In this document: positions 2,960-28,118 of the stretch, piece after piece
Layout: each line of letters opens with the position of its first letter
Numbering within the stretch: the stretch's first letter is position 1
Source: a virus
Strand: one strand, 5' to 3'
IMG/VR virus record: IMGVR_UViG_3300033993_002103
Span: 1 to 31,106 of that record
DNA length: 31,106 nucleotides
Made by a program: the position numbers and the translations under genes
Notes under the pieces: model-generated
Told to the model about the DNA's origin: nothing
Database searches by the model: none
Seen by the model: only the letters and a program-made list of their open reading frames with translations

Positions 2960-5332
2960 TTACTCGTAGGTGATCGTGATCTTGATGAGGCCAGCCGTAG
3001 CTCCACCGGGAGTTCCGCCGGTGGTGTTCAGGCGAACGACAAGTGCGGGCCAGCCAGCCGTCTCTGCAAAGAAGGCGTTGGCAGCTGATGGGGTCGCGTA
3101 GGTCCCGCCTAGGGCGAAGGCGTTGAGGGCCGACACAAATCGCGTCTCGGCCCCGGTGATGCCTACGTCCACGGTGGCGGCCGAGATGCTGCCGCCGGAG
3201 ATTGCTGTCACGATCTCGACGCGCGCACCCACGACGCTGGCTGCTCGTGGCAGGCGATAGCCCGCATATCGGGCCAGCGTTCCGGTTCCGAGCGTCAGCG
3301 TTTCGGTGGCCCCGCCTCCAACAAAGTCCGCCTCGCTCACGGTAAAGGTCAGCGTGTTGGCGGGCTGCATCGACGGGGCGGCGTTGGAGTCGCCGGCGGC
3401 ACCTCGGGCCAGCTCGCCCGATGCGGTGTCACGGATGAGGCTGTCGTAGGTCACGTCGGCCTGTCCGCGAACGGCCATCTCACCGATTGTGCCCAGCACT
3501 CGAATCTGGTTGACGTGGATGCGGGATCGAAGGTTCGCGGTGGTGATTGGGCCGGTGATCGCTGCGGCCCCGTTGACCATCTCCAGAGAGTCGATGAGAC
3601 CGCGACTGATCTGGGCTTCGTTGCCGTTGTTGAGGGAGACGCCGCGAAGCAGCGAGCCAGAAGCGATTGCCTCCATGCGGATATTGCCCGCGGTGAAGTC
3701 GTCGATCCGCGTGATGATGCTATCGGTGCCGCCGCCGATGTTGATAAGCGTGACGCTGCCGCCGGTTTGCGCCGAGACTACATCCCACGAACCTGCTCGC
3801 AACACGCGGGCGGAAGCGGTGAACGTGAAGAGGCTGTGATTGACGGTGCCGCTGGGCCGTGCCCGCCAGGTCGCACGCGAGGCGTCGAACAGGCTCATCA
3901 CGGTGCGGGGCGACGTGTTGTTGTAAAGCAGAGCAGAGACGTTTGAGCCCGGAGCCAGTTCCATCACGCCGTCGAGCGTGAGTTCGCGGAGGCCAATGGC
4001 GCGAGACTGGATGAGGGCGTAGCCGCTGGTAGGCACGACGATACTGGCGTTGCGGATTACGATGCGGCGGTGGACAGCCTGAGTCAGCTTGACGGTCGCG
4101 TCTCCAGTGTCGTCAAGGCCAATGCCCATTCCTGAGTTGTTGGGCTTGACGCTTCCGGTGACGCCATCAATCAGGATGTCCGAGACTTCCTCGCTGGTGT
4201 AGGCCCCGTTCAAAATGCTAATGGAGGCGTCGGTGGTGGCCTTGGCCATCACGCCCACCTCGACCGAGTTGGCGTCGATCTTGCGGATGATGGGGAGGGC
4301 GAGGGGCTGCGCCGCGGTGACGTCATCACCGGAGAATGCACCGCCAGTACCAGGCTGCTTGATCGTGCCCCCGACGACCTGAAGGAAGTCGCCGTCCTGC
4401 CAGGTGTAGAGGTCGAAAAGGTTGGTCTTTCTGATGATGCGGGTGGGGGCCGCCGCTGTGCCGACGTCCCATGTCACGCCTGTTACGGTAGCCAAGGGAG
4501 CCTCGGTCGAAGTGAGGTCGTTGACACGGACGGTGGGCATGAAGCGACCGGTGAGACGAATCAGCTCCGCTGAGTTGCTCATGTGAACGCGGGTGATGTG
4601 GAAGAAGCGAACCGAGCCGTTGGTGAAGCTGACGGTGGTGACGCCGTTGTTGTACGACTCGTAGGCACCGTAGTCGCGGTTCATCAGGGCGACCGGGTTG
4701 TCGTCACACGCCCCCCAGACGTTGTCGATGCGGACGCGCTCGCAGGCACCGGAGAAGTGGACGCCGTCGCTAGAAACCGCGCCGATGCCGTACTCCGTGA
4801 CGTTGCCTACGAAGCCGACGTTGCGGATGTCCACGTCGTACGCGCGGTTGAAGTAAACGCAGTACTTGCCGTCACGCTGGCTAAAGAGCGGCCCCGCGGT
4901 GTCGCGGAAGACGATGTCGTTGATTGTGAACCGCTGGACGTGCCAAAAGACGCAGGTATGGCCGTCGTCGTTGGTGGCAATGCCATCGGCTACGCGGCCG
5001 ATCGAGCCGCCGCCATCGATCAGAACGTCCGTAGTCTGGCTCGTGCCGATCGTCTGGAAGAGCTGGACACCGGGAGCTGCGCTGTGGCGCCAGAGGCGGA
5101 CGCCGGGCGGAACGTGGAGGTGCGTGCCGGTGCGGAGCGTGATGCGGCCCGAGAAGTAGTAGTCGCCGGGCTTGCTGAAGGTGACGGGGGCGCCGGTGTC
5201 GATGGCGGCCTGGAGCACGACGCTGGCCGCTTGTGCCGCGGCAAGAGATGGCTCGGCCGCCACAGGTGGGAGCCGTGCTGAAACGTCGATGGCCGCGAGC
5301 GCCGAACTGCCGAGCCGTGCTAGAGCTTCCAT
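2960..5332 (-). CDS. Tailspike / receptor-binding protein with right-handed beta-helix
   Basis: 790 aa. The N-terminal 60 residues are Ala-rich (MEALARLGSSALAAIDVSAR). They are followed by a pectate-lyase-like beta-helix region: VTFSKPGDYYFSGRITLRTG, HLHVPPGVRLWR, DVLIDGGGSIGRV, FTINDIVFRDTAG, DVDIRNVGFVGNV, RVRIDNVWGAC and SDILIDGVTGSVK. These short beta-strand rungs with [ILV]D/N-x-[ILV] turns are typical of phage tailspikes that bind and often depolymerise surface polysaccharide. The C-terminal 120 residues (TLTFTVSEADFVGGGATETL to LIKITITYE) look like a separate beta domain, perhaps for trimerisation. No catalytic residues can be assigned by eye. It lies between the 200-aa virion gene and the membrane protein. 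The ribosome-binding site is weak (GAGAAG). Confidence 0.8.
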   Translation of the reverse strand: MEALARLGSSALAAIDVSARLPPVAAEPSLAAAQAASVVLQAAIDTGAPVTFSKPGDYYFSGRITLRTGTHLHVPPGVRLWRHSAAPGVQLFQTIGTSQTTDVLIDGGGSIGRVADGIATNDDGHTCVFWHVQRFTINDIVFRDTAGPLFSQRDGKYCVYFNRAYDVDIRNVGFVGNVTEYGIGAVSSDGVHFSGACERVRIDNVWGACDDNPVALMNRDYGAYESYNNGVTTVSFTNGSVRFFHITRVHMSNSAELIRLTGRFMPTVRVNDLTSTEAPLATVTGVTWDVGTAAAPTRIIRKTNLFDLYTWQDGDFLQVVGGTIKQPGTGGAFSGDDVTAAQPLALPIIRKIDANSVEVGVMAKATTDASISILNGAYTSEEVSDILIDGVTGSVKPNNSGMGIGLDDTGDATVKLTQAVHRRIVIRNASIVVPTSGYALIQSRAIGLRELTLDGVMELAPGSNVSALLYNNTSPRTVMSLFDASRATWRARPSGTVNHSLFTFTASARVLRAGSWDVVSAQTGGSVTLINIGGGTDSIITRIDDFTAGNIRMEAIASGSLLRGVSLNNGNEAQISRGLIDSLEMVNGAAAITGPITTANLRSRIHVNQIRVLGTIGEMAVRGQADVTYDSLIRDTASGELARGAAGDSNAAPSMQPANTLTFTVSEADFVGGGATETLTLGTGTLARYAGYRLPRAASVVGARVEIVTAISGGSISAATVDVGITGAETRFVSALNAFALGGTYATPSAANAFFAETAGWPALVVRLNTTGGTPGGATAGLIKITITYE

Positions 5333-24565: not shown

Positions 24566-25477
24566 GTGATTACCGAACGTCAGAGACAAGTCAGGAACCA
24601 AGGCGTCGGCGCGTCCGAGTGCGCCGCCGTGCTTGGGCTTGACCCGTACCGATCCGCCTACGACCTCTACATCCTCAAGTCCGAGCTCCACGAGGAGAGC
24701 GGCGAGCGGGCCGAGAGCGAGGCCCAGGCCATCGGCAACCTCATCGAGCCGACGACCGCCGCCCTTGCCGAGCAGCGGCTTGGATGCCGTCTGGTCAAGC
24801 CCACGAGCACGTACAAGGCTCCCAACGGCGTCATGTTCGCCAATCTGGATCGGCAGGTCGAGAAGTCGATCCGCGGGGCCGACAACTGCGAGCTCAAGTC
24901 CACCGGCCTGACCGAAGGCTGGGGCGAGGAAGGCACCGACCAGATCCCCGAGCGGACGCTGATCCAGGTGACGGCACAGATGGTGTGCAGCGATGCCCGC
25001 GTGTCGCACGTCGCCCGCCTGCTTGGGCGCTGGGGCTTTTCGTTCTCAATGTACCGCGTCGAGTTCAACCCCCGGCTGGCGCAGGTGATCGAGGAGAACG
25101 TGCTGGAGTTTTGGCGTTGTGTCGAAGATGGACGCGCACCAGCCAACAGCGTCCCCAGTCTGGAAGTCATCTCGCACGTCCGCCGCGTGCCGGGCAAGGT
25201 GGTGGACATCTCGCCAGAAGTGGTGAGCAACTACCGCCGGGCCGTGGCCACGCGGAAGGACGCCGAGCAAGTCGAGGAAGAAGCCAAGGCCGTTCTGCTG
25301 GCGGCGCTTGGAGATGCAGAGGTCGGGAAGGCAGGCAACCTCACGGCGTCGTTCCGCACTATCGAAACAAACCGTTTCGACGCCGCGGCGTTCAAGACTG
25401 CCCACCCCGACCTTCACGCTCAGTTCACCAAATCCAGCGGGTATCGCAGGTTGGATGTGAAGGAGTCGAAGGTATGA
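24566..25477 (+). CDS. YqaJ-type viral exonuclease (lambda-exonuclease-like)
   Basis: 303 aa. GTG start at 24566 placed by AAGGAG; the in-frame GTG at 24521 lacks a site. The family motifs are visible: GVGASECAAVLGLDPYRS near the N-terminus, GNLIEP with E61, NLDRQV with D95, ELK (E109-K111), and QIPERTLIQVTAQM with Q134. These match the PD-(D/E)XK core that resects double-stranded ends to leave 3' single strands. The neighbour, overlapping by ATGA, is the presumed annealing partner, as in exo-bet type operons. The C-terminal helical part (RKDAEQVEEEAKAVLLAAL) is usual for phage versions. Confidence 0.88.
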   Translation: MITERQRQVRNQGVGASECAAVLGLDPYRSAYDLYILKSELHEESGERAESEAQAIGNLIEPTTAALAEQRLGCRLVKPTSTYKAPNGVMFANLDRQVEKSIRGADNCELKSTGLTEGWGEEGTDQIPERTLIQVTAQMVCSDARVSHVARLLGRWGFSFSMYRVEFNPRLAQVIEENVLEFWRCVEDGRAPANSVPSLEVISHVRRVPGKVVDISPEVVSNYRRAVATRKDAEQVEEEAKAVLLAALGDAEVGKAGNLTASFRTIETNRFDAAAFKTAHPDLHAQFTKSSGYRRLDVKESKV

Positions 25478-26472
25478 GCATTGTGACCCGCCCCCGTGCA
25501 GACATGATCGACGACGATCAGGAGCTGCCAACCATCAAGATCGACCAGCCCCAGGACCGGATGAGCCCGGCATCGAGGGCGGAGGTGGACATTCAGATTT
25601 CCACCGCAAGGGCCTACCCGCGCTCGATCAAGAACTTCAAGCAACTCGCGCTGGCAATGGCGACGCTGGACGAGGAGACCGCTTCGGGGTGCTTCTACGC
25701 ACTTCCAAGGAGCGGCAAGACCATCGAGGGGCCGTCGGTTCGCCTCTCGGAGATCGTGGTCTCGGCATGGGGCAACATCCGCGCCGATGCCCGCGTGATC
25801 CACGTTGGCGACAAGGAAATCGTCGCCGAGGGGATGTGCTGGGATCTGGAGCGGAATATCGCCATCCGCAAGCAGGTGACGCGCCGCATTACGGACAAGA
25901 ACAACCGCCGCTACTCCGAGGACATGATCGTCGTCACGGGCAACGCGGCCTGTTCTATCGCGTTCAGGAACGCCGTGTTCGCGGTGGTGCCTGGGGCATT
26001 CGTGAAGTCGATCTATGACGCGGCCCGGAGCGTGGCCATTGGCGACGCCAAGACGCTGGCCAACAAGCGGGCGGACATGGTGGCCTACTTCGCCAAGATG
26101 GGCGTCCAGCCCGACCGCCTGCTTGCGGCAATCAACAAGGCTGGCGTCGAGGACATCGGGCTCGACGAGCTTGGCCTGCTCAAGGGCATGGCAACAGCCA
26201 TCAAGGACGGGGACACGACCGTCGATCAGGCGTTTCCCGATCCCAAGGCGGCTTCACTCCCGGCGACCACTGGGTCCGCTGCGGACAGGCTCATCAGCAA
26301 GCTCGCACCGAAGGCGGAGCAGCCGCCCAGCGAGCCTCCCGCCCCCGCTGAGCCTCCGGCCCCATCCGAGCCCGCCGACGGCATGACGGACGACCAGCGG
26401 GCATTCACGGCCAGCCTGCTGCCAACCGGCGAGCCCGAGAAGGTCGCCAAGCGAGGCACCCCACGCAAGTAG
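25474..26472 (+). CDS. Putative single-strand annealing protein (phage recombinase)
   Basis: 332 aa, ATG at 25474 overlapping the exonuclease stop (ATGA). The central region (TIEGPSVRLSEIVVSAWGNI, RADARVIHVGDKEIVAEGMC, WDLERNIAIRKQVTRRI, DMIVVTGNAACSIAFRNAVF, AVVPGAFVKSIYDAAR) is a pattern I associate with phage proteins encoded next to YqaJ exonucleases. A RecT/Erf-like annealing role is inferred from that pairing. No Walker motif is present, so RecA/Sak4 types are excluded. After residue 280 there is a Pro-rich linker (PPSEPPAPAEPPAPSEP), then a short charged tail that could bind host SSB or partner proteins. A strong hairpin follows the stop. Confidence 0.7.
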   Translation: MSIVTRPRADMIDDDQELPTIKIDQPQDRMSPASRAEVDIQISTARAYPRSIKNFKQLALAMATLDEETASGCFYALPRSGKTIEGPSVRLSEIVVSAWGNIRADARVIHVGDKEIVAEGMCWDLERNIAIRKQVTRRITDKNNRRYSEDMIVVTGNAACSIAFRNAVFAVVPGAFVKSIYDAARSVAIGDAKTLANKRADMVAYFAKMGVQPDRLLAAINKAGVEDIGLDELGLLKGMATAIKDGDTTVDQAFPDPKAASLPATTGSAADRLISKLAPKAEQPPSEPPAPAEPPAPSEPADGMTDDQRAFTASLLPTGEPEKVAKRGTPRK

Positions 26473-26608: not shown

Positions 26609-26630
26609 GGGCCTTCTAAGCCTAGCCGCA

Positions 26631-26866
26631 CCCTCGCGTGGCCTTGTCGGTCGCGCGAGGGATTGGACAGGGCAGCGCAGGCCATGTCGGGGCTGGGTGG
26701 GGCATGGTTCGGTGGAGCATGGCAAGGCGACATCTCGCTCGGTTGAAAGACCGGGCGGGGGATTCATGGTCTGGAGTGCCGAGGTCGGGCATGGTGATGC
26801 GCGGAGCGGACGGGTCTGGACTGGCGGGGCATGGATCTCGCCTCATCGGGAAACCGACGGGGCGGG
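26631..26866 (+). repeat. GGNNN-pentamer / GAAA-hairpin array, upstream block (3 units)
   Basis: Hairpins at 26631-26661 (13 pairs, loop TTGTC), 26733-26760 (GGTT-GAAA-GACC core) and 26837-26866 (TCGG-GAAA-CCGA core, one A/C mismatch) start 102-104 nt apart. Between them are pentamer runs in constant five-nt phase: 26671-26730 (12 pentamers, 8 starting GG) and 26768-26837 (14 pentamers, 12 starting GG). Tails after the stems are ATTGG, ATTC and TTTGC. The GNRA loop and G-rich runs are on the plus strand, the strand of the surrounding message. Translated ORFs across it are Gly/Arg-rich artefacts. The block ends 63 nt before the 205-aa gene. Confidence 0.85.
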
Positions 26867-26929
26867 TTTGCGAAGGGTGACGCACAACGGCCAACTTCGG
26901 CCAACACCAATCACCCAAAGGGAGTTCTC

Positions 26930-27547
26930 ATGGCTACGGCAGTTGCACTCGGCGGCGACGTTACGAACCTTGGTGCAGAGACCTACGCGGCGTCCATGCC
27001 GTACCGGGCTCGCGTGGAGATCACGGGATGCGCGGACATCCTTCTCCACCGCTGGTCGTGTGACGCGGTGGAAGCGAAGTCCAAGGCGGCGAAGGGGAGC
27101 AAGGCGAAGAAGTCCGACGACCTTGAGTCCTACGTCTACCGCAACGAGGATGGCGAGATTTGCTTGCCCGGCGAGTACCTTCGGCAGTCGATCATGGCCG
27201 CGGCGAAGTTCCGCCAAGATCCTCGCTCACCGCGCAAGTCCGCGCGTGACCTTGTGTCGGCGGCGCTGATCCCGCTCACCAACCTCGCGTCGCTCGGCAA
27301 GCTCACTTGGGACTACGAGGACCGCCGCCGCGTGCGCGTCCAGCAGAACGCGATCACTCGCGTCCGCCCGGCGATCCGCATGGGCTGGACTGTTGAGGTC
27401 GATTTCATGGTGACGCTGCCCGAGTACGTGTCGGTGGAGATGTTGCAGGGGATGGTGGTTGACGCTGGACGACTGATCGGCGTCGGCGACTTCCGCCCCA
27501 CGTTCGGGCGGTTCAACATGACCGGGTTTGAGATGATTGACTCCTGA
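26930..27547 (+). CDS. Conserved-type phage protein with RAMP-like glycine-rich C-terminus, flanked by repeat arrays
   Basis: 205 aa; ATG at 26930 set by AAAGGGAG upstream. Key segments are ITGCADILLHRW (31-42), a Lys/Ala-rich insert (46-61), LPGEYLRQSIMAAAK (79-93), DRRRVRVQ (121-128), VRPAIRMGW (145-153) and IGVGDFRPTFGRF (183-195). The order 'beta strand - LxHR / LPGEYLRxS / G-x-GDFRPxFGRF' recurs, to my knowledge, in a family of phage proteins of unknown function. The LPGxxLRxx helix start and the final G-rich loop are reminiscent of RAMP (Cas5/Cas7-like) RNA-binding folds. That resemblance is my inference and needs structure comparison. Arrays of GGNNN pentamers and hairpins begin five nt after its stop and end 63 nt before its start, which suggests a functional link. 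Confidence 0.75.
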   Translation: MATAVALGGDVTNLGAETYAASMPYRARVEITGCADILLHRWSCDAVEAKSKAAKGSKAKKSDDLESYVYRNEDGEICLPGEYLRQSIMAAAKFRQDPRSPRKSARDLVSAALIPLTNLASLGKLTWDYEDRRRVRVQQNAITRVRPAIRMGWTVEVDFMVTLPEYVSVEMLQGMVVDAGRLIGVGDFRPTFGRFNMTGFEMIDS

Positions 27548-27551
27548 TCTG

Positions 27552-28118
27552 GGTTGGGCTCGGAGTGGCTTGGTGGGGCGAGGCCGGGCACGGTGTGGCT
27601 GGGCCTGGTCTGGAGTGGCAAGGAACCCCACGTTCGGGAAACCGTGCGTGGGGGATTGCGGTCCGGCGCGGTTGGGAGTGCTGGGGTCAGGCCCGGCGCG
27701 GTCTGGGATGGTCAGGCGCGGAGCGGCAGGGCAAGGGCTACCGGGTGGCGGAAACGCTGCCCGGAGCATTCAGGGCGCGGTCAGGTGTGGCTCGGCATGG
27801 AAGGGCAAGGCGCGGTCGGGTGTGGCGCGTTGCGGCAAGGAATCACGGGCGACGGAAACGCCGCCTGTGATGTTTCGGATGTGGATTGGCGTGGTTTGGC
27901 GAGTCGGGCTGAGGCAAGCTGCGGCGCGGCGAGGTGCGGAATCCCGCTCGGTTTAACAGCCGGGCGGGGTGTTTAGGCATGGCGCGGTCGTGTCGGGTTT
28001 GGTGAGGCAGGGCATGTCCAGGCGAGGCGCGGTGCGGCATGGAACCGCCCCGTCGGGAAACCGATCGGGCGGGATTGAACTACGCCGCACTGTCCCGTGG
28101 CTGAGTAGGTCGCGGGAC
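27552..28118 (+). repeat. GGNNN-pentamer / GAAA-hairpin array, downstream block (6 hairpins)
   Basis: Hairpins: 27626-27653 (loop GAAA), 27741-27764 (GAAA), 27843-27870 (GAAA, one A/C mismatch), 27943-27968 (loop TTTAACA-like), 28045-28072 (GAAA, one C/C mismatch), 28092-28118 (five-nt loop, resembles the first upstream unit). Pentamer runs: 27552-27626 (15 of 15 start GG), 27660-27739 (15 of 16), 27774-27843 (13 of 14), 27883-27942 (9 of 12), 27976-28045 (12 of 14). Phase never slips within a run, and the last pentamer (GGAAC, GGAAT) merges into the stem. Unit period is 100-115 nt. The stems differ but pair, so structure is conserved over sequence. No gene can be supported here; high GC ORFs in this span are Gly/Arg-rich artefacts. 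Confidence 0.88.

Follow-up and report, generated by a model that had tools for sequence, protein, structure and literature searches.

A probable phage VIPR system with seven hairpin-tailed guides and predicted targets in satellite-like elements of Planctomycetota

In CRISPR systems, Cas7 and Csm3 form the backbone of an RNA-guided filament. VIPR systems, put forward in 2026 as a possible CRISPR ancestor with a gapped guide code, consist of a minimal RAMP protein (Vipr) and vrRNA guides, and were described in a preprint of that year that is not peer reviewed (PMC13142463). Each vrRNA is built of 9-16 YNNGG repeats, in which GGY is constant and NN variable, followed by a structured 3' tail; the system reads double-stranded DNA via the NN letters with one skipped base and represses competing phages and satellites (PMC13142463). 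Binding of pentamer RNA by Vipr is experimental for SUSP1 and a P. fulva prophage, and the one-base-skip rule, repression and reprogrammable targeting were shown for SUSP1 (PMC13142463).

Here we describe a locus in a 31,106-nt viral DNA (IMG/VR record IMGVR_UViG_3300033993_002103; the whole stretch is called the window below). We hold it to be very probable that the locus is a phage VIPR system, three of whose guides (v2, v4 and v6) most likely silence satellite-like elements of Planctomycetota. Its features, all on the + strand, are as follows.

26630-26663, + strand: extra strong hairpin directly upstream of v1 (z -5.0)
26668-26727, + strand: v1 repeat tract, 12 units, degenerate, several units off consensus
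26733-26760, + strand: v1 3' tail hairpin (z -3.4)
26765-26834, + strand: v2 repeat tract, 14 units; NN read as codon positions 1-2: MLVDRIEAARLLGI
26838-26867, + strand: v2 3' tail hairpin, GAAA loop (z -3.4)
26930-27547, + strand: vipr gene, 205-aa minimal RAMP (Cas7-like) protein, assigned by phrog_4652, the PDB 36pp match and fold
27549-27623, + strand: v3 repeat tract, 15 units, GG in all
27626-27653, + strand: v3 3' tail hairpin, GAAA loop (z -4.5)
27657-27736, + strand: v4 repeat tract, 16 units; predicted target reads LRAWITAGCPTDAG, opposite strand
27741-27764, + strand: v4 3' tail hairpin, GAAA loop (z -4.1)
27771-27840, + strand: v5 repeat tract, 14 units
27842-27871, + strand: v5 3' tail hairpin, GAAA loop (z -3.3)
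27880-27939, + strand: v6 repeat tract, 12 units; predicted target reads VFVVEGEKAADA
27941-27970, + strand: v6 3' tail hairpin (z -4.3)
27973-28042, + strand: v7 repeat tract, 14 units
28045-28072, + strand: v7 3' tail hairpin, GAAA loop (z -3.0)

The 205-aa protein matched phrog_4652, a PHROGs family of unknown function (E 1.6e-18); Pfam, NCBIfam and PADLOC gave no name for it, and the cas models of PADLOC and NCBIfam did not match it. A family profile made from 75 sequences, the window protein and homologues from viral contigs, matched PDB entry 36pp ('SUSP1 Vipr protein') with E 5e-41 as its only strong match to a solved structure, and the window protein alone reached the same entry with E 9e-7. 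The AlphaFold2 model was confident (mean pLDDT 93.6, pTM 0.86), with Cas7 of type VII and Csm3 of type III-A as the top Foldseek matches (E ~1e-7, probability 1.00) and a best Z of 12.6 over 163 residues in VIA-align against Cas7/Csm3 RAMP proteins; 36pp was not among the structural matches, the fold library comprising entries released up to April 2026. The predicted structure confirms the protein as a RAMP related in fold to Cas7 and Csm3. A preliminary description of this DNA had guessed at a Cas7-like RAMP resemblance by eye and had suggested structure prediction and Foldseek against Cas proteins; the model, with these two Cas proteins on top, and the 36pp profile match bear that guess out. 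Both segments that it had pointed to, LPGEYLRxS (here LPGEYLRQS) and the terminal GxGDFRPxFGRF (here GVGDFRPTFGRF), are present in the ORF at 26930-27547 (+), and the GxGDxRPxxGRF loop is conserved across the Vipr family. Judged by sequence and model, the protein thus combines the features of a Vipr: a minimal RAMP with an RRM-like core, the G-loop and homology to SUSP1 Vipr.

To either side of vipr, the + strand shows a GG at 5-nt intervals, a periodicity that no other part of the window matches in strength. The GG autocorrelation in the right part of the array is 57 at lag 5 versus 5-18 at lags 2-4 and 6-9, and at lag 5 within the vipr gene it is 2. The array consists of seven separate YNNGG tracts of 12-16 units, two before vipr (v1, v2) and five after it (v3-v7), with highly varied NN letters and constant GG. 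All seven tracts are followed by a tail hairpin of ~10-13 bp, usually with a GAAA loop (z -3.0 to -4.5), and tract and tail together span ~100 nt; similar tails with GNNA-type loops occur in several close Vipr relatives. The automatic parse of v1 covered 26688-26727, and its upstream extension to 26668 was made by hand; its NN letters are AG AG AG AT GG TG GG AT TC GG AT AA. The array had been said to stop 63 nt before the gene, which is correct (the last hairpin ends near 26867, ~63 nt from the start codon), and to resume five nt after the stop codon, which is not, since the first YNNGG unit by our parsing begins at 27549, after 1 nt. Of the 'same phase rules' claimed for the two halves, the YNNGG grammar holds on both sides; a single phase does not, each tract having its own 5-nt phase and closing hairpin, so that the array is not one continuous repeat. 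Rfam gave one sub-threshold whalefall-1 match on the locus, taken as chance, and no hammerhead ribozyme. The hairpin at 26630-26663 has no pentamer tract before it and is possibly the tail of a lost or decayed guide unit, or a leader.

Homologues were fetched by protein with arrays not considered, and the 80 closest were examined, a same-strand NNNGG tract within 1.5 kb of the vipr homologue being scored as positive. Such an array was found in 75 of the 80, and an opposite-strand tract in one. Control DNA lying beyond 2 kb, 240 kb in all, contained no pentamer tract, nor did any of 160 shuffled flanks of homologous loci, which places the array beyond chance. Conversely, a scan for twelve GGs at 5-nt spacing returned at least 120 viral stretches, with a Vipr homologue in most. 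The protein-plus-array system proposed in the preliminary description, together with its suggestion that homologues be checked for co-occurring arrays, is therefore sustained by the RAMP fold and by the array beside 75 of 80 homologues versus none in the control DNA.

To examine the reading rule, we took twelve-unit NN strings out of 509 tracts and searched for them in 2.0 Mb of fetched DNA with the arrays masked. Matches of at least 20/24 numbered 100, 314, 55 and 61 at skips 0, 1, 2 and 3, a three- to six-fold excess of skip 1 over the other skips for all arrays, and matches of at least 21/24 numbered 8, 117, 5 and 2. Many of the skip-1 matches sit in the DUF669 gene region upstream of vipr, or in vipr itself, in sibling phages, and are thus not independent events; an earlier target search of 1 Mb of array loci showed no skip-1 excess, which appeared only once sibling phages were included. 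The two strongest skip-3 matches (L179 to L177) were rejected as targets, being most likely the sibling's unmasked array, because skip 3 equals the array's own spacing. When the window's seven guides are scored against codon positions, their NN letters agree with positions 1-2 (+11 bits) and not with the other sense frames (-40 and -33), a pattern predicted by a skip that falls on the wobble base.

A ten-unit exact pattern of v2 had eleven matches in GTDB genomes, and only one of them lay in a fitting gene, the HTH_17 excisionase-like gene of a 3.9-kb Phycisphaerales MAG contig (L158), where the match is 25/28 and reads LLVDRIEAARLLSV. The best match of v6 in 2 Mb fell on the same contig, in the adjoining Toprim/DUF3987 primase gene (21/24, 0/4000 permutations); v6 had played no part in the retrieval of L158, so this match is independent. 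Primase homologues were then fetched from Planctomycetota genomes by protein. In the fetched primase loci, v6 reached 23/24 at the conserved Toprim motif, with none of 6000 order permutations as good; for v4 the score was 26/30, on the upstream HTH_17 gene at its 3' end, again with 0/6000 permutations. The predicted sites lie, for example, at L252:2119-2154 for v6 and at L251:3979-4023 for v4. For v2, 25/28 on the HTH_17-DUF3987 loci was reached by one of 6000 order permutations; as L158 was retrieved with its own pattern, v2 is discounted as the weakest of the three, and because a single guide's match led to the target loci, the statistics of v4 and v6 carry the weight. At skips 0, 2 and 3 all three guides were at background. 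With all guides, the same loci gave 185 matches of at least 20/24 at skip 1 versus 14, 11 and 14 at the other skips, a ~thirteen-fold excess. The predicted one-base-skip (NN-x-NN) matches of v2, v4 and v6, seen at skip 1 only, to two adjacent genes of integrase-bearing Planctomycetota elements are what is new here.

Guides v1, v3, v5 and v7 had no target above chance in the searched loci, and no database element was matched well by v2, v4 and v6 together, their best matches lying in three different genomes. Allowing up to 3 mismatches, the v2 pattern found L158 alone in 392 Planctomycetota genomes. Exact skip-1 patterns searched in IMG/VR gave 0 matches for v3 (10 units), 6 for v3 (8 units), 16 for v5 and 1 for v4, all taken as chance because none extends clearly beyond the searched core; the three IMG/VR matches of the v2 pattern were likewise set aside as chance. 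The vrRNAs of ten Planctomycetota-borne vipr loci showed no target in the fetched target loci.

The target elements carry a tyrosine integrase in the three genomes examined and an XRE-type regulator next to the primase in two; the 20-kb regions showed no evident phage structural genes. Their make-up is satellite-like or IME-like, and we infer that they are satellites. One Planctomycetota genome (L322:1781-10339) has an element of the targeted type next to a type I restriction system with an HsdR-like protein of 941 aa, a position that defence cargo might take.

Of 301 genomes from a single Planctomycetota order, 10 carry the closest vipr relatives found among cellular genomes (61-65% identity). 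As the same order holds the genome of L158 and many target elements, a planctomycete host is likely on these sequence grounds; a terminase search gave matches of 24-34% and no clear host signal. GenBank phages include no near nucleotide relative of the window. A twin contig, L003, is near-identical, and since its arrays are identical to those of the window it is uninformative on array evolution. Over 8.2 kb all ten differences between the two fall within 24904-25247 (344 bases) of the RecE-like gene, which suggests a recombination tract or a mixed assembly.

In the window, vipr lies between a RecE-like exonuclease and phrog_3657 gene on one side and replication-initiation genes on the other, its neighbours including a replication-initiation protein and a DnaC-like loader. 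The phrog_3657 protein (25474-26472, unknown function, E 3e-51) directly follows the exonuclease, a position that suggests an uncharacterised recombinase or annealing protein. No vap accessory gene was recognised next to vipr in a search made without vap reference sequences; the preprint counts six vap genes for seven VIPR types (PMC13142463), so a type without vap may exist.

In the close-relative clade, vipr often shares a recombination module with an AAA_24 ATPase, DUF669 and RusA. Such neighbours, and the place of the window's vipr between recombination and replication-initiation genes, would suit a protein belonging to the phage's recombination module, such as an accessory for single-strand annealing or junction processing, with the array as a recombination or packaging signal. 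We consider this very improbable, given that the fold is that of a RAMP, that the array stays with vipr in very different neighbourhoods (Felix O1-like phages, by DNA ligase; Medea1, among tail genes), and that a signal needs no same-strand orientation, yet 75 loci are same-strand versus one opposite. More remote still, to the point of being negligible, is that the array is an artefact of sequence composition or a simple repeat undergoing decay: the tract-free shuffles (0/160) and the skip-1 excess refute it. The DNA is G-rich, tandem slippage is possible and relatives hold very long uninterrupted tracts of up to 141 units, yet NN varies while GG is constant, every tract here is punctuated by a hairpin, the NN letters find predicted targets, and Tandem Repeats Finder reported no array.

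It is also improbable, if less so, that the RAMP-like protein binds the GGY pentamer RNA as a scaffold, a decoy or a regulator of its own operon, with NN devoid of target information. In favour of this reading, no target could be recognised for four of the seven guides, and the array's position around the gene resembles that of autoregulatory RNAs. Against this, skip 1 is in excess by three- to six-fold for all arrays and ~thirteen-fold on the HTH_17-DUF3987 loci, the NN letters fit codon positions, and reprogrammable targeting is published for the SUSP1 VIPR (PMC13142463). The NN letters thus go beyond the earlier reading of the array as an RNA to be bound, and would serve as guides to predicted DNA targets and not as a mere binding scaffold.

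The preferred reading, a VIPR system, draws on the RAMP fold, family membership, repeat grammar, tails, co-occurrence and skip-1 matches, all from sequence and model. The window holds the protein, YNNGG tracts of 12-16 units (v1 degenerate) and hairpin tails, and the locus is a real and probably functional one; we infer that this copy is expressed and active and that its guides target and repress. Vipr most likely polymerises along each of the seven ~100-nt vrRNAs, where it would contact the GGY of every YNNGG repeat and present the NN letters. The complex would then read double-stranded DNA as NN-x-NN-x..., so that in coding sequence the skipped base would be the codon wobble position, and its binding would block transcription. 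By this route v2, v4 and v6 most likely shut down two neighbouring genes of small integrative satellite-like Planctomycetota elements, the excisionase-like regulator and the primase, and would so shield the phage against competitors or parasites that share its host.

With the type II VIPR of SUSP1 (PDB 36pp) the locus shares a homologous minimal RAMP, ~100-nt YNNGG vrRNAs with a structured 3' tail lying up- and downstream of vipr, skip-1 targets, and predicted targets in a satellite-like element. The window Vipr is ~27-28% identical to its Felix O1-type relatives, SUSP1 included. The tails are predicted as simple 10-13 bp hairpins, usually with GAAA, whereas those of the SUSP1 clade contain a pseudoknot (PMC13142463); there are seven guides instead of four, no partner gene was recognised after the window's vipr, and the surroundings of that gene are a recombination/replication module, in what is probably a planctomycete phage. 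The RAMP fold and the C-terminal glycine-rich loop are common to class 1 CRISPR-Cas proteins (Cas7 of type VII, Csm3 of III-A), from which the locus differs in its single small protein at ~10-14% identity, with no other cas genes recognised, and in guides made of YNNGG pentamers and not of repeat-spacer units. A search for near-identical repeats with unique spacers, as in a CRISPR array, returned just 60-70% similar pentamer-phase repeats and tail hairpins. A 52-57% identical protein with an adjacent same-strand pentamer array is found in phage DSL-LC04 (OR003939.1) and IMG/VR contigs 3300021082_000050 and 3300018083_000081, which differ from the window in their other neighbours and in having the array on one side only; the DSL-LC04 vipr is annotated as a helix-turn-helix regulator.

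At least three further viral arrays (L181, L190, L022) contain guides that match the same primase family, and the arrays of the window and these three match the regulator or the primase of one element family, made up of an HTH_17 excisionase-like regulator, a Toprim/DUF3987 primase, an XRE-type regulator and a tyrosine integrase. We lean towards the view that VIPRs of planctomycete phages converge on this one family of small integrative elements, and that phage-satellite conflict is a main driver of guide evolution beyond SUSP1. Recovery of the skip-1 rule in uncultured viruses and bacterial genomes outside the preprint's main text amounts to an independent test of the gapped code, and VIPR is extended to a probable planctomycete phage with seven hairpin-tailed guides. 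The naming of concrete natural candidate targets, an excisionase-like regulator and a primase, makes the phage-versus-satellite hypothesis directly testable.

Several related loci deserve mention in their own right. In the Felix O1-like Citrobacter phage Moogle, unannotated GGTNN arrays with hairpins (L127:2548-2740 and 3935-4290) flank the vipr homologue CPT_Moogle43 and its partner gene CPT_Moogle44 on both sides. Beside a vipr 62% identical to that of the window, L021:6308-7012 holds one 141-unit pentamer tract without hairpin breaks, possibly made of overlapping (staggered) guides. The guides L211:3244-3318 and L212:3226-3300 match the DUF669 region upstream of vipr in many siblings with up to 24/24 at skip 1, and the 16-unit guide L122:7796-7880 matches the vipr region of contig L026 near 3905 (-) with 26/32 at skip 1. 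The guide L192:948-1032 matches the 3' end of vipr in the siblings L181, L211, L212 and L183 (21-22/24, skip 1), which on sequence would represent VIPR directed against VIPR.
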